Shown here piece by piece: positions 1-11,830 of a DNA stretch of 11,913 nucleotides. Each line of letters opens with the position of its first letter. The first letter of the stretch is position 1. Origin of the DNA: Candidatus Latescibacterota bacterium. Lineage in GTDB: Bacteria; Latescibacterota; UBA2968; GCA-2709665. The stretch is taken from positions 1 to 11,913 of the forward strand of contig JASLMQ010000539.1 of the NCBI GenBank assembly GCA_030746455.1, in the 5' to 3' direction. The notes under the pieces were generated by a model that was not told the origin of the DNA, searched no databases, and saw nothing but the letters and a program-made list of their open reading frames with translations. Position numbers and translations under genes: made by a program.

Positions 1-1212
1 CATCACGCCCTCTGCAAGGACGTCGCCGAGGCCCTCGCGGCGGGCGATCATGTCGAGCAGCCTGAGCGCCGCTTCCTGGTTGCCGAAGCTGAGCTCGAGT
101 CCGCCGGTGTCTTCCACCGTGAGGATGCCTTCTTCGTAGCACTCCATGGCAAAGGCGATGGCGGCTCCCGTCGAGATCGAGTCCAGGACGTACTGGGCCA
201 GCATCTTGTTGGCCTTGGCGATGTGGTGTAGGTCGCCGATGCCCTGGAGGGACCCGACGGCAGCGATGGTCTCGTACTCCGGGCCGCCGTACTCGGCCTT
301 CACGTCGGTGCCCTCGATCTCCACCTCGCGCTTGCACGCCACGGCGCACGCGAAGCAGGTGCCCCGATTCGCCAGGATGGTGTCGCGCATCACCTGGCCC
401 GTGATCTCCGATGCCTTCTCGAAGGAGCCCTCCCGAAAGTTGCGCGTGGGGAGGATGCCGTCGGCGTCGAGGGCGCCCACGCCGCGCGAGGTCCCCATGT
501 CGTGCAGCCCATCGGCGGCCTGGTTGTAGGTCTTGCGCCACCAGTCGAGTACCCCGGTGAAGCCCTCCCTCGATGCGGATTCGATGCGGCCCTTGCCCCG
601 GCAAGCGATGGCCTTGAGCTTCTTGGACCCCATAACCGCACCGAGGCCGCTCCGGCCGTGGAAATGGCGCTGCTGGTTGACCAGGGCCGCGTATCGGACG
701 CCGTTCTCGCCGGCGATCCCCGTCTGCAAGACCCGGACTCTGGAATCGCCGATCTCCTCCTCGAGTCCGTGCTGGACCTCGTCGGCCAGCTTGCCCCAGT
801 ACTCCGAGGCGTCCCGGATCTCACATGCACCGTCGTGCACAAAGAGGTAGACGGGTGAATCGGCAGCCCCCTCGACGATGATGCCGTCGAAGCCGGCCGT
901 CTTGAGCTCCGGACCCCAGTAGCCGCCCGCCTCGGACTCCCCGAAGGTGCCGGTGAGCGGGGACTTGGCGGCAGCCGTGTAGCGATTGGCGCCGGACAGG
1001 GGCATGCCGTTGATGACGCTGGTCATGAGAATCAGCTTGTTCTCCGGGCCGAGGGGGTCGACCCCGGGCGCGAGCTCCTTGAGGAGGTAATAGCAGGCGA
1101 GCCCCCCTCCGCCCAGGTAGCGACGGTAGATCGCCTCGCCGGGCTCCTCGACGGAGACCTCGCGACTCGTCAGATCGACTCTCAGGATCTTGCCGGTGTA
1201 TCCGTGCGGCAT
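1..1212 (-). CDS. Aldehyde:ferredoxin oxidoreductase (tungsten/molybdopterin), N-terminal 404 residues, truncated by the window edge
   Basis: Family members oxidise aldehydes to carboxylates in the cytoplasm and pass electrons to ferredoxin, using a tungsten or molybdenum bis-pterin centre and a [4Fe-4S] cluster. The frame is open from ATG at 1212 to base 1. The N-terminus (GYTGKILRVDLTSREV) and the segment PLTGTFGESEAGGYWGPELK (residues 85-104) are typical of the AOR N-terminal domain. The pterin-binding stretch AGEN (167-170) to GRSGLGAVMGSKKLKAI (186-202) follows. Cluster ligands are C286-x2-C289-x3-C293, then GGPEYET near 309-315, a conserved acidic motif. The fourth cluster cysteine and the C-terminal domain lie outside the window (full length is about 600). 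An AAGGAGGA ribosome binding site at 1217-1224 supports the start. The family is certain. The substrate, and W versus Mo, cannot be told from this part. Confidence 0.95.
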   Translation of the reverse strand, partial: MPHGYTGKILRVDLTSREVSVEEPGEAIYRRYLGGGGLACYYLLKELAPGVDPLGPENKLILMTSVINGMPLSGANRYTAAAKSPLTGTFGESEAGGYWGPELKTAGFDGIIVEGAADSPVYLFVHDGACEIRDASEYWGKLADEVQHGLEEEIGDSRVRVLQTGIAGENGVRYAALVNQQRHFHGRSGLGAVMGSKKLKAIACRGKGRIESASREGFTGVLDWWRKTYNQAADGLHDMGTSRGVGALDADGILPTRNFREGSFEKASEITGQVMRDTILANRGTCFACAVACKREVEIEGTDVKAEYGGPEYETIAAVGSLQGIGDLHHIAKANKMLAQYVLDSISTGAAIAFAMECYEEGILTVEDTGGLELSFGNQEAALRLLDMIARREGLGDVLAEGVM

Positions 1213-1256
1213 ATCATCCTCCTTCACGATGTATCACAGAGCAGAGGTCCATACGG

Positions 1257-1674: not shown

Positions 1675-2655
1675 ATGGAATCCGCACTAACGAGGACGTC
1701 GGTATGGCTTCACCGGTACGCGATCTTCACGGCCGGGGCCACCCTGCTGTTGATCCTGGCCGGTGGGCTGGTCACCAGTACCGGTTCCGGGCTCGCGGTG
1801 CCCGACTGGCCCTTGGCGTTCGGTATGGTGTTTCCTCCCATGGTGGGCGGGGTCCTCTTTGAGCACGGGCATCGGATGATCGCCACTTTCGTGGGCATGC
1901 TCACCGTTGTGCTGGCGGTCTGGATCTGGAAGTCGGAGGGCCGAAGGTGGCTTCGCTACCTCGGTCTCGCGGCGCTGGCCGCCGTTGTGGTCCAGGGGCT
2001 TCTCGGCGGAATCACGGTGCTCTACCTGCTTCCCACCGCCGTTTCGGTAACGCACGCATGCCTGGCCCAGATCTTCTTCTGCCTGACCGTGTCGATCGCC
2101 CTCTTCACGTCTCGGGGGTGGCAGGATCCCGCTTCACTTGTTGAAGACGGCGGCAGCGTCCCCCTCAGAGGGCTCACGATCCTCGCGTCGGCCACGGTCT
2201 TCCTTCAGCTTTTGCTGGGCGCGATCATGCGGCATATGGGCGCAGGGCTTGCCATTCCCGATTTCCCTCTCAGCTTCGGGCACATCTTTCCGCCACTGGA
2301 CGGCCTCCCCCTGGGACCGGAAGAGGGAGCTCTTGTGACGCGCAGCCAGGTTCTCGTGCACTTCGCGCACCGGTCCTGGTCGGTCATCGTGCTGGCGGCG
2401 ATCGTCTGGGTGGTCTCCCAGATCTCTCGCAGGCACCCGGGTCGGCGGACGGTGGCTGGTCCCGCGCGCCTTCTGCTGGGCCTGGTGATTGCGCAGGTGG
2501 CCGTGGGGGCCCACGTCATCTGGTCCGGGAAGGCGGTCGTGGTGACGACGGTTCATGTCGCCACCGGCGCATCGATTCTGGCGACGAGTGTGGTGCTGTG
2601 CCTTCAGACATGGCGTCTCCTCGTTCCCCCATCGCTCGGCGGTGACGGCCGATGA
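1675..2655 (+). CDS. ctaA: Haem A synthase (CtaA/COX15 family)
   Basis: This integral membrane monooxygenase oxidises the C8 methyl of haem O to a formyl group, giving haem A for aa3-type oxidases. The 326-residue protein has about eight membrane segments in two homologous halves. The duplication is visible in TGSGLAVPDWPLAFG (36-50) against MGAGLAIPDFPLSFG (188-202). Expected haem-ligand histidines are present: H64/H66 in FEHGHR, H127 in SVTHA, H229/H232 in HFAHRSW, and H294 in TTVHVATG. The catalytic-type glutamate E63 precedes H64. The paired extracytoplasmic cysteines of Bacillus CtaA are absent, as in the cysteine-free class. GAGGTG at 1661-1666 lies 8 bases before the ATG and fixes the start. 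The stop overlaps the ctaB start. The product serves the oxidase encoded convergently in this window. Confidence 0.95.
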   Translation: MESALTRTSVWLHRYAIFTAGATLLLILAGGLVTSTGSGLAVPDWPLAFGMVFPPMVGGVLFEHGHRMIATFVGMLTVVLAVWIWKSEGRRWLRYLGLAALAAVVVQGLLGGITVLYLLPTAVSVTHACLAQIFFCLTVSIALFTSRGWQDPASLVEDGGSVPLRGLTILASATVFLQLLLGAIMRHMGAGLAIPDFPLSFGHIFPPLDGLPLGPEEGALVTRSQVLVHFAHRSWSVIVLAAIVWVVSQISRRHPGRRTVAGPARLLLGLVIAQVAVGAHVIWSGKAVVVTTVHVATGASILATSVVLCLQTWRLLVPPSLGGDGR

Positions 2656-3560
2656 AGCCAGATGCTGGTATGGTGAGCCAGTGGCCGGCGGTGATTCGCT
2701 CCCGGGTGCTGGATTACGTCTCGCTGATGAAGCCCGGCATCACGGTCTTCGTGGCGCTCAGCAGCGCCGCGGGCTTCATTCTGGGTTCGTCCGAGATCGG
2801 GCTCGATCCCTTCCTGCTATGCGACGTCGCACTGGCCACGGTGGCGGTTGCGGCCGGCGCGATCGTACTGAACCAGTATGTCGAGCGCGATCTCGATGCG
2901 AAGATGGCGCGGACGGCCAACCGGCCGATTCCATCTGGACGGCTGGATCCCGCGGAGGCCTACGGGATCGGGGTGCTGCTCTCGGCTCTGGGCGTCACCT
3001 ACTTCCTCGTGCGGCTCAACTGGCTTGCAGGCCTTCTGGCGGCCCTGGCCTGGGGCATCTATCTGTTCCTCTACACGCCGCTGAAGCGGAAGTCTTCCCT
3101 CCACACGACCCTGGGTGCCGTGGCCGGAGCCCTGCCTCCCGTGGGGGGATGGGCTGCGGCGCGAGGGGAATTCGCACCCGAGGCGTGGGTGTTGTTTCTG
3201 ATCGCGTTCTTCTGGCAGTATCCCCATTTCCTGACCATTGCGTGGATCCACAGGGAGGATCTCCCCCGTGAATCCTATTGTTGGCCGGCTGTACAGGATG
3301 CGGATGGGCCCCGCCTGCCTCGACAGGTCGTCCTCTGGACCCTTGCGCTTCTTGCAGGCAGCCTCCTGCCTGTCGCACTTGGCATGAGTGGATATGTCTA
3401 CCTCGTGGTCGCGTTTCTGCTGGGATCCTGTCTGCTCGCCCTGGGCCTGTCCTTCACCAGACAACGGACACAGGCCAATGCCCGGCGCCTTCTTTGGGCC
3501 AGTCTGTTCTATCTGCCCTTGCTCTGGACCGCGATGGTCCTGGGGGAGGTGACCCTTTGA
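2652..3560 (+). CDS. ctaB: Protohaem IX farnesyltransferase (haem O synthase, CtaB/COX10)
   Basis: This UbiA-family membrane prenyltransferase adds a farnesyl group to haem B, giving haem O for CtaA. The 302-residue protein has about eight to nine membrane segments. The first prenyl-diphosphate/Mg motif is N74-QYVERD-L-D82-AKMARTANRP, with E78 where E. coli CyoE has Asp and with D80 and D82 kept. The haem O synthase signature YTPLKRKSSLHTTLGAVAGA (141-160) and PPVGGW (162-167) follow. The second acidic region is WQYPHF (188-193) with RED (201-203). The ATG at 2652 overlaps the ctaA TGA in an ATGA, which indicates translational coupling. A second in-frame ATG at residue 7 is possible, but the overlap favours the first. 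The length is normal. Confidence 0.95.
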   Translation: MKPDAGMVSQWPAVIRSRVLDYVSLMKPGITVFVALSSAAGFILGSSEIGLDPFLLCDVALATVAVAAGAIVLNQYVERDLDAKMARTANRPIPSGRLDPAEAYGIGVLLSALGVTYFLVRLNWLAGLLAALAWGIYLFLYTPLKRKSSLHTTLGAVAGALPPVGGWAAARGEFAPEAWVLFLIAFFWQYPHFLTIAWIHREDLPRESYCWPAVQDADGPRLPRQVVLWTLALLAGSLLPVALGMSGYVYLVVAFLLGSCLLALGLSFTRQRTQANARRLLWASLFYLPLLWTAMVLGEVTL

Positions 3561-4418: not shown

Positions 4419-4715
4419 CTATGCCGACTCGATCTCGGTGAAGATGGGAAGCAGAATCAGAGCGCCGAACACCACCACGGTGACGATCAACAGCCCATAG
4501 ATGACTCGTTTCTCCGAGATCAGGTGCATGAAGTACCCAGCCACCAGCGACCCCTTCACCGTTGCGATGGCCAGAGCGACCAGCACGGCGAGCCCGGCGG
4601 ACAGGTGGAGATAGGAGACCGCCACCGTCAGCACCGTCAATGCGGCGAGTGCGACGAAGACCGTCAGATACACCCTGACGTGCTTGCTGACTTCCGCGGC
4701 GCTTGCTGTGCTCAT
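4419..4715 (-). CDS. ctaF: Cytochrome c oxidase subunit IV, prokaryotic COX4_pro type
   Basis: This 98-residue protein with three membrane segments (about 14-35, 39-62, 69-90) matches the bacterial subunit IV family, related to CyoD of bo3 oxidases. These subunits stabilise the binuclear centre during assembly and are not catalytic. The diagnostic centre is ALAIATVKGSLVAGYFMHL (47-65), whose FMHL with a preceding lysine is typical of the family, followed by SEKR at the membrane edge. AGGGGG at 4726-4721 lies 5 bases before the ATG at 4715. The gene follows subunit III after a gap of only 9 bases and precedes the two small membrane proteins. Length and topology are normal. Confidence 0.92.
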   Translation of the reverse strand: MSTASAAEVSKHVRVYLTVFVALAALTVLTVAVSYLHLSAGLAVLVALAIATVKGSLVAGYFMHLISEKRVIYGLLIVTVVVFGALILLPIFTEIESA

Positions 4716-4724
4716 TGAGGCCCC

Positions 4725-5321
4725 CTACAGGAGATAGAGAGTTGGAAAGAGGAAGATCCAGACCAGATCCACGAAGTGCCAGTAGAGCCCGGCGCACTCG
4801 ACCCGGTTGGTCAGCCGCTCGGGCTCCGTGCTCCACATGGCGCTTCCTGGAAAGAGCAGGTATAGAATCACCAGCACGCCGCCCAGTACGTGGAGGCCGT
4901 GGAGGCCGGTCAGGGTGAAATAGATCGCATAGAATGTGCTGGTAGACGGAAATATCTGGTGTTCGAATTTTTCCCCGTACTCGTAGAACTTGATCGCCAG
5001 GAAGACGAGGGCCAGGAGGACCGTGCCTCCCAGGTAGAGGCGATATCTGCCGAAACGCTGCATCTTGAGAGACGCCCAGGACATCACCATCGTCATGCTG
5101 GAGGCGATCAGCACGAGGGTGTTCAGGGTCGCCAGTGGGACGTTCAGTTCCTTCGAGCCGAGGGGCCAGGCCTCAGCGCCCACCCGCAGGAGCACGTACG
5201 ACGAGAAGAGCGCTCCGAACAGCATCACCTCCGAAGCTAGAAACAGCCAGGTCCCGAATTTCGCATTGTAGATTCCGGTCACAGGATGCGGTTTGACGAT
5301 GTACGGGATTTCGGCAGACAC
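4725..5321 (-). CDS. ctaE: Cytochrome c oxidase subunit III
   Basis: Subunit III of A-family oxidases binds no metal but supports proton uptake at the D-channel and stability of the active site. The 198-residue form has five main helices, the short bacterial version. Family marks are WLFLASEVMLFGALFSSYV (25-43) with the conserved E31, KFYEYGEKFEH (111-121), TGLHGLHV (138-145), and the C-terminal YWHFVDLVWIFLFPTLYL (180-197). I chose GTG at 5319-5321 because AGGGGG (5336-5331) lies 9 bases upstream. A GTG at 5327 is only 3 bases from that site. An upstream in-frame ATG at 5519 would overlap the subunit I gene by more than 130 bases and encode unrelated sequence. The start is less certain than the family. 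Confidence 0.93.
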   Translation of the reverse strand: MSAEIPYIVKPHPVTGIYNAKFGTWLFLASEVMLFGALFSSYVLLRVGAEAWPLGSKELNVPLATLNTLVLIASSMTMVMSWASLKMQRFGRYRLYLGGTVLLALVFLAIKFYEYGEKFEHQIFPSTSTFYAIYFTLTGLHGLHVLGGVLVILYLLFPGSAMWSTEPERLTNRVECAGLYWHFVDLVWIFLFPTLYLL

Positions 5322-5382
5322 CTTCACTGTCCCCCTGACACAATGTGTGAACCGACCCCGGGCGGATGCAGCCGCCCATCCC

Positions 5383-7197
5383 TCAGTCGGCGAGCTGCCT
5401 CTCTGGAGCGACGGGCCCATCCTCCGGCAGGTGTTGTGGCCAGTAGTCCGTCGGCCTTCCGGGCACGCTGTACTCGTAGGGCCCCCGGTAGACGCGGGGC
5501 GGTGTGGGAAAATTTCCATGGGGCGGCGGCGTGGACGTGGCCCACTCGAGGGTCGTGGCCTCCCACGGGTTGTCCGACGTTGCCTTCTCGCCCTTCCGAA
5601 TACTCAGGAAAAAGTTGACAATGAACGGAATCTGTGCGAGGGCCAACAGCCACGCGCCCCAGGAACTCACCTCCGTGAGCCCCTGGACCTCCGCCCCGAA
5701 GGCGTACTGGGTCTGGTCGTAGAGCCTCCTTGAGACCCCCGCCATTCCGATGAAGAACATCGGCATAAAGACGACATTCATGAAGGTCAGTGACAGCCAG
5801 AAGTGGAGCTTCCCCAACCACACGCTCATCGTCCTCCCCGTCACCTTTGGGAACCAGTGGTAGATCCCTGCGAACAAGGCGAAGATCGTGCCGGGGGCCA
5901 CCACGTAATGGAAGTGTCCGATCACATAATAGGTGTCGTGCAGGTGCAGGTCGGAAGCGGTCAGCCCCAGAGGCAATCCCGTTAGCCCCCCGATGGCAAA
6001 CATTGGGATGAACGCCAGGGCAAAGAGCATTGGCACCGTGAACCGGATAGAACCCCCGTGGAGGCTGAGCGCCAAAGCCGTCAAGACGATCACGGAAGGG
6101 ATGGAGATGATCATCGTCGTGGCCTGGAAGAAGGCGCTCAAGGTCGTCCCCATCCCGGTCATGAACATATGGTGCGCCCAGACGATGAAGGACATGAAAC
6201 CCAAGAAGAGGATCGAGTACACCATCGCCCGGTATCCCCACAGAGGCTTGCGGGTGTTGTTGGCGATCACCTCGGCCACGATCCCCATTGCCGGCAGAAT
6301 CAGCACGTAGACTTCGGGGTGCGCCAGGAACCAGAACAGGTGCTGCCAGAGCAGGGGGTTCCCCCCTCCGCTCACGTGGAGCACTTCTCCCGTCACCACG
6401 AGCCCGCTGGGCAGGAAGAAGCTTGTGCCCGCCACCCGGTCCATCAGTTGCAGCACGCCGGCGGCCTCCAGCGGAGGAAACGCCAGAAGCAGCAGGAAGG
6501 CCGTCACGAACTGTGTCCAGACGAAGAACGGCAGCCTGAAAAAGGAAAGTCCTTCGACCCTTAGCTGCACCGTCGTCACGATGAAGTTGATCGACCCCAA
6601 AAGCGACGACGTGATCAGCAGGACCATGCCCAGAAGCCAGATAGTCTGGCCCACTGGTGCAATGTCGGCGAGCGGGGGGTACGAGGTCCACCCGGACTGG
6701 GCCGCCCCGCCGGGAACAAAGAAGCTGACGAACATGACCAGGCCGCCCAGAAAATAGACCCAATAGCTCGCCATGTTGATCCTGGGAAACGCCATGTCCG
6801 ACGCCCCGATCTGCAGGGGCAACACATAGTTTCCGAATCCCCCCACCGCCAGCGGCACCACGCCAAGAAAGACCATGATGGTCCCGTGCATCGCCCCTAG
6901 CTGGTTGTAGAACTCGGGGACCATCGCCCCTTCGGGCATGTTGGCCTCTCCGAAAAGCCTGCCGAGAATCGGGAGCGGCTGGCCGGGGTAGGCGAGCTGC
7001 CACCGCATCAGCATCACCAGGCCGAATCCAAAGAGGAGGAACAGCAAGCCGGTCACGGCGTACTGGATCCCGATGACCTTGTGGTCTGTGGAAAAGACGT
7101 ATCCTCGCCAGAACCCCAGCTCATCGTGATGCTGCCCTTCCGGCCCTCCGGACCCATCACCTGTACCGTGGTTCTTCCTTTCAGGGTCTTCGCCCAT
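5383..7197 (-). CDS. ctaD: Cytochrome c oxidase subunit I (A-family haem-copper oxidase) lacking the K-channel lysine
   Basis: This is the catalytic subunit that reduces O2 to water at haem a3-CuB and pumps protons. It has 604 residues and twelve helices. H104 and H430 bind low-spin haem a and H428 binds haem a3. CuB ligands are H293, H342 and H343, with Y297 as the cross-linking tyrosine in HPEVY. E295 in that motif places it in the A1 subclass. D-channel residues D134, N123 and N141 are kept, while Q211 replaces the usual Asn. H420, D421, R490 and R491 are also kept. From helix VI onward, numbering is offset +9 from Rhodobacter sphaeroides without gaps, which puts V371 at the K-channel lysine (K362). 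The C-terminal tail NPWEATTLEWATSTPPPH is typical. GGGGAG 8 bases before the ATG supports the start. Confidence 0.97.
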   Translation of the reverse strand: MGEDPERKNHGTGDGSGGPEGQHHDELGFWRGYVFSTDHKVIGIQYAVTGLLFLLFGFGLVMLMRWQLAYPGQPLPILGRLFGEANMPEGAMVPEFYNQLGAMHGTIMVFLGVVPLAVGGFGNYVLPLQIGASDMAFPRINMASYWVYFLGGLVMFVSFFVPGGAAQSGWTSYPPLADIAPVGQTIWLLGMVLLITSSLLGSINFIVTTVQLRVEGLSFFRLPFFVWTQFVTAFLLLLAFPPLEAAGVLQLMDRVAGTSFFLPSGLVVTGEVLHVSGGGNPLLWQHLFWFLAHPEVYVLILPAMGIVAEVIANNTRKPLWGYRAMVYSILFLGFMSFIVWAHHMFMTGMGTTLSAFFQATTMIISIPSVIVLTALALSLHGGSIRFTVPMLFALAFIPMFAIGGLTGLPLGLTASDLHLHDTYYVIGHFHYVVAPGTIFALFAGIYHWFPKVTGRTMSVWLGKLHFWLSLTFMNVVFMPMFFIGMAGVSRRLYDQTQYAFGAEVQGLTEVSSWGAWLLALAQIPFIVNFFLSIRKGEKATSDNPWEATTLEWATSTPPPHGNFPTPPRVYRGPYEYSVPGRPTDYWPQHLPEDGPVAPERQLAD

Positions 7198-7257: not shown

Positions 7258-8022
7258 TCAAAATGCGGATTCGTCCTCTTCGGCTTCGGCGTACTCTTCC
7301 TGCAGCCACTCGTTGAACTGCTCGGGGGTATCCACACTCACCGTCCCCCTCATCCGATAATGGCCTAGCCCGCAGAGCTGGGCGCAGGCCAGGTCGAACT
7401 GTCCCGTTCTGGTAGCCTGAAACCAGATCCGCGAGGTCGTCCCGGGGATCGCATCCTGGGTCAGCCTCATCACCGGGATCTTGAAACTGTGAACGACGTC
7501 CTTGGACGTGAGGTGCACGATCACGGGCGTGTTCACGGGAACGTGCATCTGGTTCACGGAATTGAGATCGTCCTGGCCGTCGGGATCATCCGGGTCGAGT
7601 CCCAACAGGTTAACATTGGTCACGAACTCGGGCCTCGTTCTCCCGAACTTCGCGTCCTTTCCGGCATAGTGGATATTCCAGGCGAACTGCTCGGCCACCA
7701 CGCGCAGCACCAGGGCCTTCGATTCGGGCGGGAAGTCGTGCTTGAAGTGCGCCCACAGGGGCATGGAAAGCCCAACGAGGAGGATCGCCTCCACCACCAC
7801 GACGCCGGCCTCTACATATTTCGAGACCCTTCCCTTGATCAGCTCATAGCTGGCTTTGGGGTTCGCGCCTTGACGGAAGCGAACCAGGCAGTAGACGAAA
7901 TAGATCCCCCACCCGACGAACAGCGCACCCATAAACCAGTGGAGCACCGTCAGGATCCGATCGACCTCTCCACCGTGCGTGGACACGTTCACCGGGAGCC
8001 AGTATCCGTAAAACTTCTCCAT
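7258..8022 (-). CDS. ctaC: Cytochrome c oxidase subunit II with CuA domain
   Basis: This subunit accepts electrons from cytochrome c at the binuclear CuA centre and passes them to haem a. The 254-residue protein has two helices (about 25-47 and 70-92) and an outer cupredoxin domain. CuA ligands are H178 (VVHSF), C213 and C217 (CAQLC), H221 and M224 (GHYRM). The glutamate usual in CAELC is Q215. QDAIPG (189-194) is typical, as is the aromatic QFAWNIHY (112-119) that links CuA to the electron donor site. No CXXCH is present, so no cytochrome c is fused. There is no lipobox. AGGAGG at 8036-8031, 8 bases before the ATG at 8022, decides the start. The frame stays open to an ATG at 8202, but that extension is hydrophilic and unrelated. 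This is the first gene of the operon. Confidence 0.95.
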   Translation of the reverse strand: MEKFYGYWLPVNVSTHGGEVDRILTVLHWFMGALFVGWGIYFVYCLVRFRQGANPKASYELIKGRVSKYVEAGVVVVEAILLVGLSMPLWAHFKHDFPPESKALVLRVVAEQFAWNIHYAGKDAKFGRTRPEFVTNVNLLGLDPDDPDGQDDLNSVNQMHVPVNTPVIVHLTSKDVVHSFKIPVMRLTQDAIPGTTSRIWFQATRTGQFDLACAQLCGLGHYRMRGTVSVDTPEQFNEWLQEEYAEAEEDESAF

Positions 8023-8075
8023 AGAGACATCCTCCTGAGAGCGCGCCGCCGCCCCTGTCGCCTCTTCTTCCTCTA

Positions 8076-8096
8076 GGGTTTCACCTCGTGAATCCC
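8076..8096. repeat. 21-bp inverted repeat in the leader of the oxidase operon
   Basis: GGGTTTCAC (8076-8084), a CTC spacer and GTGAATCCC (8088-8096) form a palindrome matching at 8 of 9 positions. It lies 54 bases upstream of the ctaC start and downstream of the candidate promoter. It could be a repressor operator or, in the transcript, a hairpin with one A-A mismatch. No T-run follows in the transcript direction, so it is not an intrinsic terminator. Confidence 0.45.
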
Positions 8097-8248
8097 AAGC
8101 CATGCCACGATCGCGATATCTGCCCTGCTTGCTGACGGGTAGGTGAGCCGATGGACGACTCCTGACCAGAATGGCTCTTGAAAAGTGGTCCTCCCCTGTC
8201 ATGATGTGGCATAAGATACGCTATATTGTCTCCTTGAATCACCTGACC

Positions 8249-8576: not shown

Positions 8577-9926
8577 GTGACGACAATGCAGCCCATTCTG
8601 CTGTCGGGGTACGGCCATGCGTCGACGGTTCCATCGCCCGTGAATCGGATGATGTCGGCCTTCGCGGACGACTTCCGGCCCGAGGCTGACATCAACCTGG
8701 GGGTCGGCTACGTCAACGAAGAGACGATCCCTCGGGAACGGATCCTCGAGGCGATGCGAACCGTGCTGGATCATCCCCAGCGCTATCCCACCGCACTCAA
8801 CTACGGCGGGTCGAGGGGGTCGCGGAACCTGATATCGGCGATTCGGGGTTTCCTCGTGGCCAACGCCGTGGGAGGCCTGACGACCGATGTCCTGGATCGC
8901 AGGGAGATCGTCATTGGGCCCAACGGGGCCACAAGCCTCCTGGAGAGCGCGGCGCTCACCCTCGAGCCAGGAATCGTGCTGACGTCGGATCCGATGTACT
9001 ACATCTACTGCGAATTCCTGGCCAGACGCGGGTTTCAGGTGGTCGCCGTTTCGGAGGATGGGGAGGGGATACGGATCGACCTGCTGGAACGGAGGCTGGT
9101 GGACCTGGGGGAGAGGCGGCGCGATATCCGCTTCCTCTATGTGGTGACCGTGAACAACCCGACGGGGACCATCCTGTCCAACGATCGGAGGGAGGCGTTG
9201 GTCCGGATCGCGGGCGACCTGTCCCGGCAACTGGGACGCCAGGTTCCGCTGATCCTCGACAGGGCGTATGAGGATCTGGTCCACGACCCGGGCGTGCCTC
9301 CCCTGGTGTCCGGGCTGATTGGCGACGGTGACGGATTGGTGTATGAGGTGGGAACGCTGTCCAAGATCCTCGCGCCTGCGCTTCGGATCGGGTATCTGAT
9401 CGGGAGTCCGGGCCCGTTCCTGGACGCGGTCGTCCAGAGGACGAGCGATTCGGGGTTCAGTGCACCCCTGATCAACCAGGAGATCGCGGCCCACCTGCTG
9501 GAGCATCACGTGAGTGACCAGATCCGGAAGGTCAACACGGGATACAGGGAAAAGGCCCGCGCGATACAGGAATGGATCGACCGCGATCTGGGGAACAGGG
9601 TATGCGAACAGACCGGCGGCGGCGCGGGCTTCTATATCTACCTGACCCTTCGGGATGTGGAGACGACCGAAGACTCGCGCTTCTTCACGTACCTGGCGCG
9701 GACAACGGGTGACCCGGAGATCGACGGGACGGCGAACGATCCACATCCCAGGGTGATCTACCTGCCCGGATCGTTCTGCGTCCATCCCGAGGGGGATCTG
9801 GTGGGAGTGGGACGTCGGCAGCTGAGGCTGTCCTATGGATTCGAGGAGCTTCCCCGGATCGAGCAGGCGATCGGGATGATGAAGCGGGCCGCGGACTACG
9901 CACAAGAGGGGAGTGTGGGGCCATGA
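8577..9926 (+). CDS. PLP-dependent aminotransferase, fold type I (class I/II)
   Basis: Enzymes of this group transfer an amino group between an amino acid and a 2-oxo acid in the cytoplasm through pyridoxal phosphate. The 449-residue protein has the full set of marks: a phosphate-contact loop near GPNGATS (114-120), NNPTG (193-197), the Asp/Tyr pair in ILDRAYED (226-233; D228 contacts the pyridine nitrogen), the Schiff-base lysine K263 in TLSKILAPALRIGY, and an Arg in LRLSYG (R417) that would hold the substrate carboxylate. There is no N-terminal GntR helix-turn-helix, so it is not a full MocR regulator. General similarity is to the 2-aminoadipate/aromatic transaminase group, and the substrate is unknown. 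I take GTG at 8577 after GGGGAT (8564-8569). ATG at 8586 is the alternative. The stop overlaps the next gene. Confidence 0.9.
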   Translation: MTTMQPILLSGYGHASTVPSPVNRMMSAFADDFRPEADINLGVGYVNEETIPRERILEAMRTVLDHPQRYPTALNYGGSRGSRNLISAIRGFLVANAVGGLTTDVLDRREIVIGPNGATSLLESAALTLEPGIVLTSDPMYYIYCEFLARRGFQVVAVSEDGEGIRIDLLERRLVDLGERRRDIRFLYVVTVNNPTGTILSNDRREALVRIAGDLSRQLGRQVPLILDRAYEDLVHDPGVPPLVSGLIGDGDGLVYEVGTLSKILAPALRIGYLIGSPGPFLDAVVQRTSDSGFSAPLINQEIAAHLLEHHVSDQIRKVNTGYREKARAIQEWIDRDLGNRVCEQTGGGAGFYIYLTLRDVETTEDSRFFTYLARTTGDPEIDGTANDPHPRVIYLPGSFCVHPEGDLVGVGRRQLRLSYGFEELPRIEQAIGMMKRAADYAQEGSVGP

Positions 9927-10987
9927 CGTCACGCGAACGGGTTGCCAGACTGCTCCGGTTCCAGGAGGCCGACCGGATCGGGATCGCCGAGTCGCTGTTC
10001 TGGGGATCGACCGTGAAGGGGTGGCTGGAACAGGGCCTTGACGTGGAGGGCAACATCTACCACACGTTCGATCTGGACGTACATCGGGTTCGGGCCGAGC
10101 TCCATCTGGGATTGCCCATCGAGACCGTGGAGGAAACCGAGGACTACGTGCTCTACCGGTCGGCTGACGGGGTCCTGGAGAAGAAGTTCAGGGTGAACCC
10201 GGAGGAGAGGGGTGTCCAGCACCTCGACTATCTGATCAAGACACCGGACGACTGGTTCCGCGAGAAACACCGGATGACGCCCGACGGACGCGTGGACGAT
10301 CGGTATGTCGCAGAGTGGCGAGAGTACTACAGCCGAGATCGGTTCGTGTTCTTCTACCTGCGCGGCCCGTTCTGGTCGGCGTGCAACAAGATGGACTTCG
10401 CACAGTTCAACTACTGGATGTTCGATCACGAAGACGTGGTCAGGGACATACTGGAGACGGAGACCGACTTGATTCTGGGCATCTGGGAGGAGGCAGCGCG
10501 GCTCGGGCTGAGGTTCGACGGCGCCTACATCCTGGACGTGATGGGGATGAAGGAGGCGACGTACATCTCACCCGCTCTGTACCGATCTCTGGTGATGCCC
10601 TTCCACGAACGGATCTGCGCGTTCTTCCGGGACAGGGGATTTCCCGTGATGCTGCACAGCGACGGGAACGTGAAGGATCTGCTTCCCCATCTGATCGATG
10701 CGGGATTCACGGCGCTGACTCCTGTGGAGAGTCGAGCGGGAATGGACCTGATCGAGCTCAAGGAGGCCTACGGGGACCGGCTTGCGTTCATGGGCGGGAT
10801 CGACGCGGATGTCCTGAGCACGGGGGACAGGGGTGCGGTCGAGCGCGAAGTGGTGACCAAGACGCAGGCCGCCAAGCAGGGGGGCGGTTTCATCTACCAC
10901 TCGGATGGATCCATCCCCCCCACGGTTTCTCTCGACGCCTACCGGTACGCGCTGGACCTGGCGATCGAGCATGGGACCTACCCATAG
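9923..10987 (+). CDS. Uroporphyrinogen decarboxylase-like (URO-D superfamily) protein
   Basis: The 354-residue protein has the TIM-barrel layout of the URO-D superfamily, which includes haem-pathway decarboxylase and cobamide-dependent methyltransferases. It starts with RERVARLLRFQEADRI, the usual N-terminal helix. Later marks are FDGAYILDVMGMK (198-210), MLHSDGN (243-249), a GFTALTPVES strand (261-270), GGID (291-294) and the C-terminal SDGSIPPTVS (327-336). The HxC...C zinc site of MtaA/CmuA methyltransferases is missing, since HSDG replaces HxCG. The true HemE N-terminal arginine motif is not seen either. It is therefore probably neither HemE nor a CoM methyltransferase, but one of the many uncharacterised URO-D-like enzymes. 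The ATGA overlap with the aminotransferase gene suggests a shared, probably catabolic, pathway of unknown substrate. Confidence 0.88.
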   Translation: MTSRERVARLLRFQEADRIGIAESLFWGSTVKGWLEQGLDVEGNIYHTFDLDVHRVRAELHLGLPIETVEETEDYVLYRSADGVLEKKFRVNPEERGVQHLDYLIKTPDDWFREKHRMTPDGRVDDRYVAEWREYYSRDRFVFFYLRGPFWSACNKMDFAQFNYWMFDHEDVVRDILETETDLILGIWEEAARLGLRFDGAYILDVMGMKEATYISPALYRSLVMPFHERICAFFRDRGFPVMLHSDGNVKDLLPHLIDAGFTALTPVESRAGMDLIELKEAYGDRLAFMGGIDADVLSTGDRGAVEREVVTKTQAAKQGGGFIYHSDGSIPPTVSLDAYRYALDLAIEHGTYP

Positions 10988-11047: not shown

Positions 11048-11830
11048 ATGTGGGGTAGGCATGCTGTCCGCGAACTTCGTGTTGTCCTCGGTTTTCTGGT
11101 GTTCGTCGGGGTCCTGGGATGCGATCCCGACCGCACCGTCTATGTTACTGCAAGGGCGCTGAACCTCCGCGAGATGCCGAATACGCGGGCCCCCGTCCTG
11201 GCGCGGCTGGAGCGCGGAGACGAATTGATCGTTCGGTCGGAGCACGAGGCATGGCTCAAGGTGAAGACCGGCAAGGGTGTGCTCGGGTGGGTGCACGGAA
11301 ACTACGTAGGTGATCCCGAGGCGGTCCAGGCTGCGGCGCAACGGTCCCGAACTCGTCACAGGAAGGGGTCCAGTGGTGCCGCGCTGTCGGGAGGGCCAGC
11401 GATATCAGAAGAGGACCGGCGGTTGGACCTGACGATGGATCAGCTTCTCGCAGGCTTCCCGGACAGCCTGGTGATCGAGGAGCGGGATCCGCTCGACGGC
11501 GAGTTGAGACACGTGGGTGCGGTTGGGAAGGGGAAGGCCCTCGCCCTATGGGGAGAGCCGGAAAACCTGACCCGCGCTTCCCTCGTGATTCCGGTGGTGG
11601 ACGTCCCGGATTCGTTGCTGCTAGTCGGGGCCACCCTTGCCGTGCGGTTCGTGCGAAACGCGGTGCCCCGGTGGCGGCGCACGCCGGAATGGATGGCTGA
11701 CAGCATGCGTCGGATCAGCAGCAAGGATAAGGGCCAGGCCGGATTCGACGCGGACGGGAAGGCCGTGCGCTTCGAGTTCATCAAGCCTCTTGGTGCGGTA
11801 CGCGTGATTATTCGGCCCGAGGACGCGTAG
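11048..11830 (+). CDS. Predicted lipoprotein with a bacterial SH3 domain
   Basis: The 260-residue protein begins with a charged n-region and a hydrophobic core (about 11-24) that ends in the lipobox-like VLGC, with C25 as the lipidation site. D26 and P27 follow, and in Enterobacteria an Asp at +2 retains lipoproteins in the inner membrane. Residues about 31-88 form a bacterial SH3 (SH3b) domain: LNLREMPNTRAPVLARLERG (40-59) and GVLGWVHGNYV are typical of domains that bind peptidoglycan or periplasmic partners. A basic, Ser-rich linker (about 93-113) leads to a C-terminal region (about 125-260) that I cannot assign. GAAGGGGAG lies about 5 bases before the ATG. The gene starts 60 bases after the URO-D-like gene and may be co-transcribed. 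Confidence 0.82.
   Translation: MWGRHAVRELRVVLGFLVFVGVLGCDPDRTVYVTARALNLREMPNTRAPVLARLERGDELIVRSEHEAWLKVKTGKGVLGWVHGNYVGDPEAVQAAAQRSRTRHRKGSSGAALSGGPAISEEDRRLDLTMDQLLAGFPDSLVIEERDPLDGELRHVGAVGKGKALALWGEPENLTRASLVIPVVDVPDSLLLVGATLAVRFVRNAVPRWRRTPEWMADSMRRISSKDKGQAGFDADGKAVRFEFIKPLGAVRVIIRPEDA

Follow-up and report, generated by a model that had tools for sequence, protein, structure and literature searches.

A bacterial clade of A-family cytochrome c oxidases without the K-channel lysine and with an invariant glutamate in helix 2 of subunit II

A cytochrome oxidase locus of a Candidatus Latescibacterota bacterium (contig JASLMQ010000539.1) encodes a haem-copper oxidase subunit I with valine at the site of Lys362 of Rhodobacter sphaeroides. 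We found that this protein belongs to a bacterial clade in which every member read has lost the K-channel lysine, and in which subunit II carries an additional glutamate in its second helix. K362 is the textbook residue of the channel, and its change nearly stops model enzymes. We interpret the protein as an A-family aa3-type O2 reductase whose lysine was lost ancestrally, which would pump via the D channel, and in which the reductive-phase proton would be rerouted through subunit II; taken as a whole, this account falls just short of an even balance between right and wrong.

The window, by which we mean the whole stretch of 11,913 nucleotides that was analyzed, holds an aa3-type cytochrome c oxidase locus, coxB-A-C-D with ctaA and ctaB. 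On the reverse strand lie coxA (positions 5383 to 7197; 604 amino acids, A-family by fold; COX1 Pfam E value, 4.8e-132), coxB for the CuA subunit II (open frame at 7258 to 8202), coxC for subunit III (4725 to 5519), and coxD for the prokaryotic subunit IV (4419 to 4715; caa3_sub_IV, above the NCBIfam cut-off). The forward strand carries ctaA, of the COX15/CtaA haem A synthase family (1675 to 2655), and ctaB for haem O synthase (2652 to 3560; above the NCBIfam cut-off). The open frame of coxC overlaps coxA; translation of coxC probably begins farther downstream than the first codon of that frame. The start of coxB is likely the ATG at 8022 to 8020, because the resulting protein, at 254 amino acids, is as long as a database entry with 100% identity (P0121). 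Neighbors with no evident link to the oxidase are an aldehyde ferredoxin oxidoreductase (Pfam; 1 to 1227, reverse strand) and, on the forward strand, a PLP-dependent aminotransferase-like protein with weak NCBIfam matches (8577 to 9926), a URO-D-fold protein (9923 to 10987), and an SH3-domain protein (11048 to 11830).

In a phmmer comparison with the PDB, residues 20 to 568 of the query aligned to residues 7 to 556 of R. sphaeroides subunit I (E value, 1.6e-121). The stretch from 293 to 490 is gapless at a constant offset of +9, and the anchors on either side of Val371 are invariant metal ligands. The pairs at this offset (R. sphaeroides/query) are H284/H293, E286/E295, Y288/Y297, H333-334/H342-343, T352/T361, T359/S368, K362/V371, H411/H420, H419/H428, H421/H430, and R481/R490; the D132/D134 pair sits at an offset of +2. 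The initial annotation had read the replacement of K362 by V371 (codon GTC at 6085 to 6087, reverse strand, read 6087 to 6085) from a gapless +9 alignment between H293 and R490, and had described Y297, the metal ligands, D134, and E295 as intact and T361 and S368 as standing for T352 and T359; the alignment bears out all of these points. The motif HPEVY (6307 to 6321, reverse strand) contains the CuB ligand His293, Glu295 (E286), and the cross-linking Tyr297 (Y288). S299, a further K-channel position, is also gone (A308). We looked for a better alignment that would supply a lysine, but residues 317 to 451 of the query contain none, and therefore no shift of the alignment can provide an equivalent of K362.

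Under the scheme set out in the accessible sections of PMC3084760, the haem and CuB histidine ligands and the cross-linking tyrosine of A-type enzymes are present (H104, H293, Y297, H342, H343, H428, and H430), as are the D-channel residues D134, N141, N123, N204, S144, S198, and Y46. The glutamate of type A1 at the end of the D channel (Glu286; Glu278 in Paracoccus denitrificans) is E295. The K-channel Lys/Thr/Ser set (K354, T351, and S291 in P. denitrificans) is not retained; the query has V371 and A308, with a hydroxyl only at S368, the Thr position. Because the equivalents of the K-channel lysine and of Ser291 are absent, the query is an A-family relative without a canonical K channel and not a canonical A1 enzyme. 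Nor does it have the B-type pattern (an alternative K channel of Thr/Ser/Tyr and no D channel), since it has Val at the Thr position and a D channel. It is A-family by descent and fold: in our trees it is nested among lysine-bearing COX1 rows, and its best solved relatives are A-family. A structure model made from the alignment had a pLDDT of 83.5 and a pTM of 0.87; the single-sequence model had a pLDDT of 44.2.

The change is common to the relatives of the query, which had been named in advance as the mark of a real subfamily. At the K362 column the query and the best 120 of 7998 homologues have I in 114 sequences, V in 6, L in 1, and K in none, so that close relatives carrying lysine, also looked for, were not found in this set. 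Among the genome loci (best 80 of 595), the same column has I in 39, K in 28, L in 8, V in 3, F in 1, and M in 1. Forty-eight of these loci form the main clade (I 38, L 8, V 2); they were picked as nonlysine loci minus four lysine-less outliers (L059, L062, L073, and L080), and their clade status was taken separately from the trees. Their labels name seven phyla: Verrucomicrobiota (23 loci), Acidobacteriota (7), Planctomycetota (5), Fidelibacterota (5), Omnitrophota (4), Myxococcota (2), and Hydrogenedentota (1), with 1 locus unlabelled; Latescibacteria and Gemmatimonadota are also named among the best-listed database homologues. Because the loci are the best 80 of 595, the size of the clade is a lower bound. 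Within the stretches fetched, the 48 loci contain coxB in 41 cases, coxC in 43, coxD in 34, ctaB in 18, ctaA in 16, and a Sco-like gene in 12.

The 169 clade sequences (the query, the best 120 of 7998 scored homologues, and the 48 loci chosen as nonlysine) all keep E286, Y288, and the histidine ligands, while D132 is kept in 168 and N139 in 167. S368 and T361 are invariant (169/169), and the S299 position is mostly Ala or Gly. The main clade was recovered in the tree as 57 rows with a support of 100 (starred) and, when the K-channel columns were removed, as 61 rows with a support of 99 (starred); no lysine row fell inside it in either tree, and it was nested among lysine-bearing COX1 rows. The trees were rooted on R. 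sphaeroides, and their rows were all without the B, C, and NOR families; L046 (short) was dropped from both trees and L105 from the tree without K-channel columns. The claim that this is not a dead gene thus agrees with both the intact catalytic residues and the recovered clade. The loss of the lysine can be read directly from the sequences, and it most likely had already occurred in the ancestor of the clade.

We also sampled 59 genomes from the phylum of Rubritalea. Matches were present in 18 (25 rows), of which one row (L148, with 14 in-frame stops) gave no protein; the 24 readable rows comprise 7 without the lysine (from 5 genomes), 16 with Lys, and 1 with Thr. One named strain, Rubritalea marina DSM 17716, has a clade member, as do methanotroph genomes resembling Methylacidiphilum. 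Several close relatives of the query carry the public label "cbb3-type cytochrome c oxidase subunit I" despite their homology to the aa3-type query.

Lysine-less proteins were also found outside the main clade. A sister group, consisting of L059, L080, L089, and the homologues P0241 to P0360 (the best 120 of 7999 scored), was read in 123 sequences. Its K362 site holds I in 46, L in 45, and M in 32; 121 of the sequences have Phe for T359 and 112 have Leu for S299, so the K path is apparently plugged. E286 and Y288 are kept in all 123 of these sequences, Glu stands at the S197 position in 123 and at position 232 in 97, and D412 is Gly in 113; several members carry Binatota-type titles. Main clade and sister group together had a support of 96 (starred) with the K-channel columns and 91 (unstarred) without them, and because of this drop either one or two lysine losses are possible for the pair. 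On the tree without K-channel columns, the fewest state changes at the lysine site number 3. Two further lysine-less COX1 proteins are L062 (8001 to 9668; Val, with D132 replaced by Glu), which lies inside a lysine-bearing group with a support of 98 (starred), and L073 (8001 to 9716; Phe), on a long branch outside the main clade. A Neomarinimicrobiota genome also carries another COX1 copy (G003:C1:638720-640077), which is frame-broken and has Phe in place of the lysine.

Subunit II holds the most informative change. Helix 2 begins E-x-x-W-T, with P or T at +7, in R. sphaeroides and in most of the lysine-bearing partners that were read, and its first Glu (E101 in R. sphaeroides) is the entrance of the K channel. 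The helix in the clade is E-x6-E, as in the window (YVEAGVVVVEAILL). Glu131 (Glu71 in the 254-amino-acid form; 7810 to 7812, reverse strand) is the equivalent of E101, and Glu138 (Glu78; 7789 to 7791, reverse strand) is an extra transmembrane glutamate two turns above it. Of the 121 close sequences of subunit II (the window and the best 120 of 6751, taken irrespective of their coxA partners), all have the +7 Glu and 119 have the entrance Glu. Beside lysine-less coxA genes, the +7 Glu was found in 44/44 subunit II genes, 43 by alignment and L050 by spacing (the window, 40 of the 48 main-clade loci, L167, L168, and L169); 10 of 84 loci yielded no subunit II. Four loci without the entrance Glu still keep the +7 Glu. 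The partners of lysine-bearing subunits I (27 loci and R. sphaeroides) have P, T, or V at +7 in 28/28 cases and never Glu, and neither do the lysine-less rows outside the main clade (L059 and L080, P; L062, T; L073, L). On the rows read, then, the +7 Glu occurs nowhere but in the main clade, and for this reason it seems to have been gained once, without independent replicates of a link to lysine loss; since the sister group, L062, and L073 are lysine-less without it, it is not obligatory for that loss.

The CuA site of subunit II is present (H238, C273, C277, H281, and M284, conserved in 120 or 121 of the 121 close sequences). A second subunit II difference is Gln275 in CAQLC (7378 to 7380, reverse strand); its counterpart in R. 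sphaeroides is the Glu of C-S-E-L-C, a Mg ligand. The Glu position of C-x-E-x-C is Gln in 121 of the 121 close sequences (window and best 120 of 6751) and in 43/43 readable clade genes; the 28 lysine-bearing partners have Glu in 22, Lys in 5, and Gln in 1.

The accessible sections of a simulation study of R. sphaeroides (PMC9687966) give side-chain distances of ∼22 Å for E101-Y288 and ∼8 to 13 Å for K362-Y288, which place K362 roughly 9 to 14 Å closer to the active site than E101. Seven residues of helix correspond to a rise of 10.5 Å and a turn of 700 degrees, returning to the same face. Because this rise matches the height gap between the lysine and E101, Glu138 should stand roughly level with the lost lysine, on the face where E101 looks into the channel; its pointing into the old channel would follow from helix geometry. 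Against the P. denitrificans chain, HMMER aligns helix 2 in another register than against that of R. sphaeroides. The invariance of Glu138 was observed; where it stands with respect to the lysine, and what it does, is inferred.

In model A-family enzymes the K319M change (bovine numbering) essentially blocks haem a3 reduction with the D path intact, and most other protons use the D path (accessible text of PMC12901375). In the clade, O2 reduction is most likely still coupled to proton translocation via the intact D channel. The reductive-phase proton or protons, ordinarily carried via K362, would enter by a path that uses Glu138 in helix 2 of subunit II, ∼10.5 Å of helix above the entrance Glu131, and from Glu138 would pass S368 and T361 to Tyr297. 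The clade would need a source for this proton, and Glu138 with S368/T361 seems best placed to provide it. The role of the lysine would in this way have shifted from subunit I to subunit II. More specifically, we suggest, with rather less than even confidence, that a widespread A-family clade moved its second proton input across the subunit boundary, from a subunit I lysine to the transmembrane Glu that is invariant in subunit II and would now carry the reductive-phase proton. The initial annotation had raised the idea that protons use another path, for which there is now a concrete candidate. Against this account, the old K channel may be dry, because S299 is mostly Ala or Gly in the clade. 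Also counting against it is Glu244 of subunit I (helix V; Ala247 in R. sphaeroides; 6466 to 6468, reverse strand), a second clade-specific acid (163/169; I or V in the sister group) that needs its own explanation.

In the main alternative, the K pathway was given up, so that every proton, the reductive-phase ones among them, would move through the D channel and Glu295 and the subunit II Glu would be structural, with new polar residues on helices IV and V (Glu244, Gln229, and Thr196) perhaps helping. We regard this as doubtful, though well within the range of the plausible. D-channel residues are kept in nearly all 169 clade sequences. Moreover, a D-channel-only enzyme appears possible because a K path seems to be missing altogether from the sister group: with the K362, T359, and S299 sites filled as described above, it keeps E286 and Y288 and gains the two glutamates at S197 and 232. 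L059, L062, L073, and L080 likewise do without the subunit II Glu. Against this reading, S368 and T361 are invariant in the main clade, an invariant Glu stands near the old entrance, and the K319M block in model enzymes (PMC12901375, accessible text) occurs despite an intact D path. A slow or nonpumping oxidase, in which loss of the lysine tunes turnover or stoichiometry with no replacement path, would fit the strong impairment of K-path mutants of model enzymes (same source); the clade-wide constraint speaks for normal function, as does the fact that several draft genomes apparently rely on the enzyme alone, and the invariant new Glu suggests compensation, which make this reading improbable. 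Sequencing error, misalignment, or a pseudogene, to which we assign a negligible probability, was ruled out: the change is common to the best 120 of 7998 relatives from several sources, which refutes an error or isolated change, the frame is open, and the catalytic residues are conserved.

The initial annotation had also suggested tuning for a substrate such as NO. Without the K path, normal turnover of O2 might be slower, but nothing direct favors NO, and we consider this reading, or a NO reductase, very unlikely. The residues at 293 to 297 (HPEVY) do not match H-X-Arom-X-E, the first of the NOR motifs given in PMC3084760 (accessible sections); the cross-linking Tyr, Glu295, and the D channel are kept; and the operon includes genes for a CuA subunit II and for haem A synthesis. 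We also surveyed 17 genomes with a clade member, mostly drafts, for haem-copper matches over the Pfam cut-off. In 5 of the 17 (G006, G011, G013, G016, and G017) the clade member is the only intact terminal-oxidase candidate found, with no other ligand-bearing haem-copper candidate and no bd oxidase, although because most of the genomes are drafts such absence is weak evidence. G006 has one further haem-copper match, below the cut-off, and G003 has besides its clade member only the frame-broken lysine-less copy and one match below the cut-off. Lysine-bearing A-type genes occur in 2/17 genomes (G009 and G014), the remainder hold other haem-copper proteins, and bd oxidase matches were found in 4/17. 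Two other genomes, G059 and G071, look like Methylacidiphilum and have three pmoA-type matches each; Methylacidiphilum has three pmoCAB operons (accessible text of PMC8498564). Both A-type oxidases of each lack the lysine, but because B-type genes are also present, these genomes do not show that the lysine-less enzyme suffices. The residues and the gene set together point to an O2 reductase, an aa3-type cytochrome c oxidase, and not a NO reductase.

A CcoN-like protein is encoded upstream of the lysine-less coxA in 12/48 clade loci (for example, L047:4857-6317 and L167:6859-8304). Genes like those of alternative complex III (ACIII) lie upstream in 10/48, all with Verrucomicrobiota titles, and 10 of the 12 CcoN-like genes are accompanied by them. 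The Act and Cco names of the Rubritalea genes used as queries are our assumption; only the CcoN-like query was matched by a family search (PF00115). Of 10 CcoN-like proteins compared (9 from the 17-genome set and 1 from G059), 9 lack at least four of six aligned haem/CuB histidines, and that of G007 keeps all six. The accessible text of PMC8498564 places a "cbb3-type" oxidase next to ACIII in verrucomicrobial methanotrophs. As the Methylacidiphilum-like genome G059 has no other C-type candidate among its haem-copper matches, this oxidase may lack an active site, with the lysine-less COX1 as its catalytic subunit.

A natural, diversified clade without K362 suggests that a haem-copper oxidase can dispense with the lysine. 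The clade is a natural experiment on the reason for two proton inputs, and the sister group is a second one, on a D-channel-only enzyme; the invariant subunit II Glu gives one specific target for mutagenesis. Our literature search, mostly outside subscription papers, found no report on this bacterial lysine-less clade or on a subunit II acid replacing K362. K-channel loss within family A has been discussed before for archaeal lineages, with seven losses in family A counted if its ancestor was archaeal (Degli Esposti et al. 2021, PMC8239418). The tree in that paper is archaeal, and its accessible text mentions neither this bacterial clade nor compensation in subunit II; these, the bacterial clade and the subunit II Glu, are what appears to be new here.

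B-family (ba3) enzymes, with their alternative K channel, are likewise without lysine at 362. The putative B-type rows in our data (L157 to L160 and L163) have Thr there, whereas the clade has a hydrophobic residue and keeps its D channel. Among the aa3 oxidases of verrucomicrobial methanotrophs, for which the accessible text of PMC8498564 describes no absence of the K channel, the Methylacidiphilum-like genomes G059 and G071 carry two lysine-less members each, and one locus read from each (L167 and L168) has E-x6-E in subunit II. Compared with the A1 aa3 oxidases of R. sphaeroides, P. denitrificans, and mitochondria, the enzyme described here has lost K362 and S299 from subunit I, has E-x6-E in helix 2 of subunit II where those enzymes have E-x2-W-T-x2-P, and has Gln for the Glu of the subunit II C-S-E-L-C.
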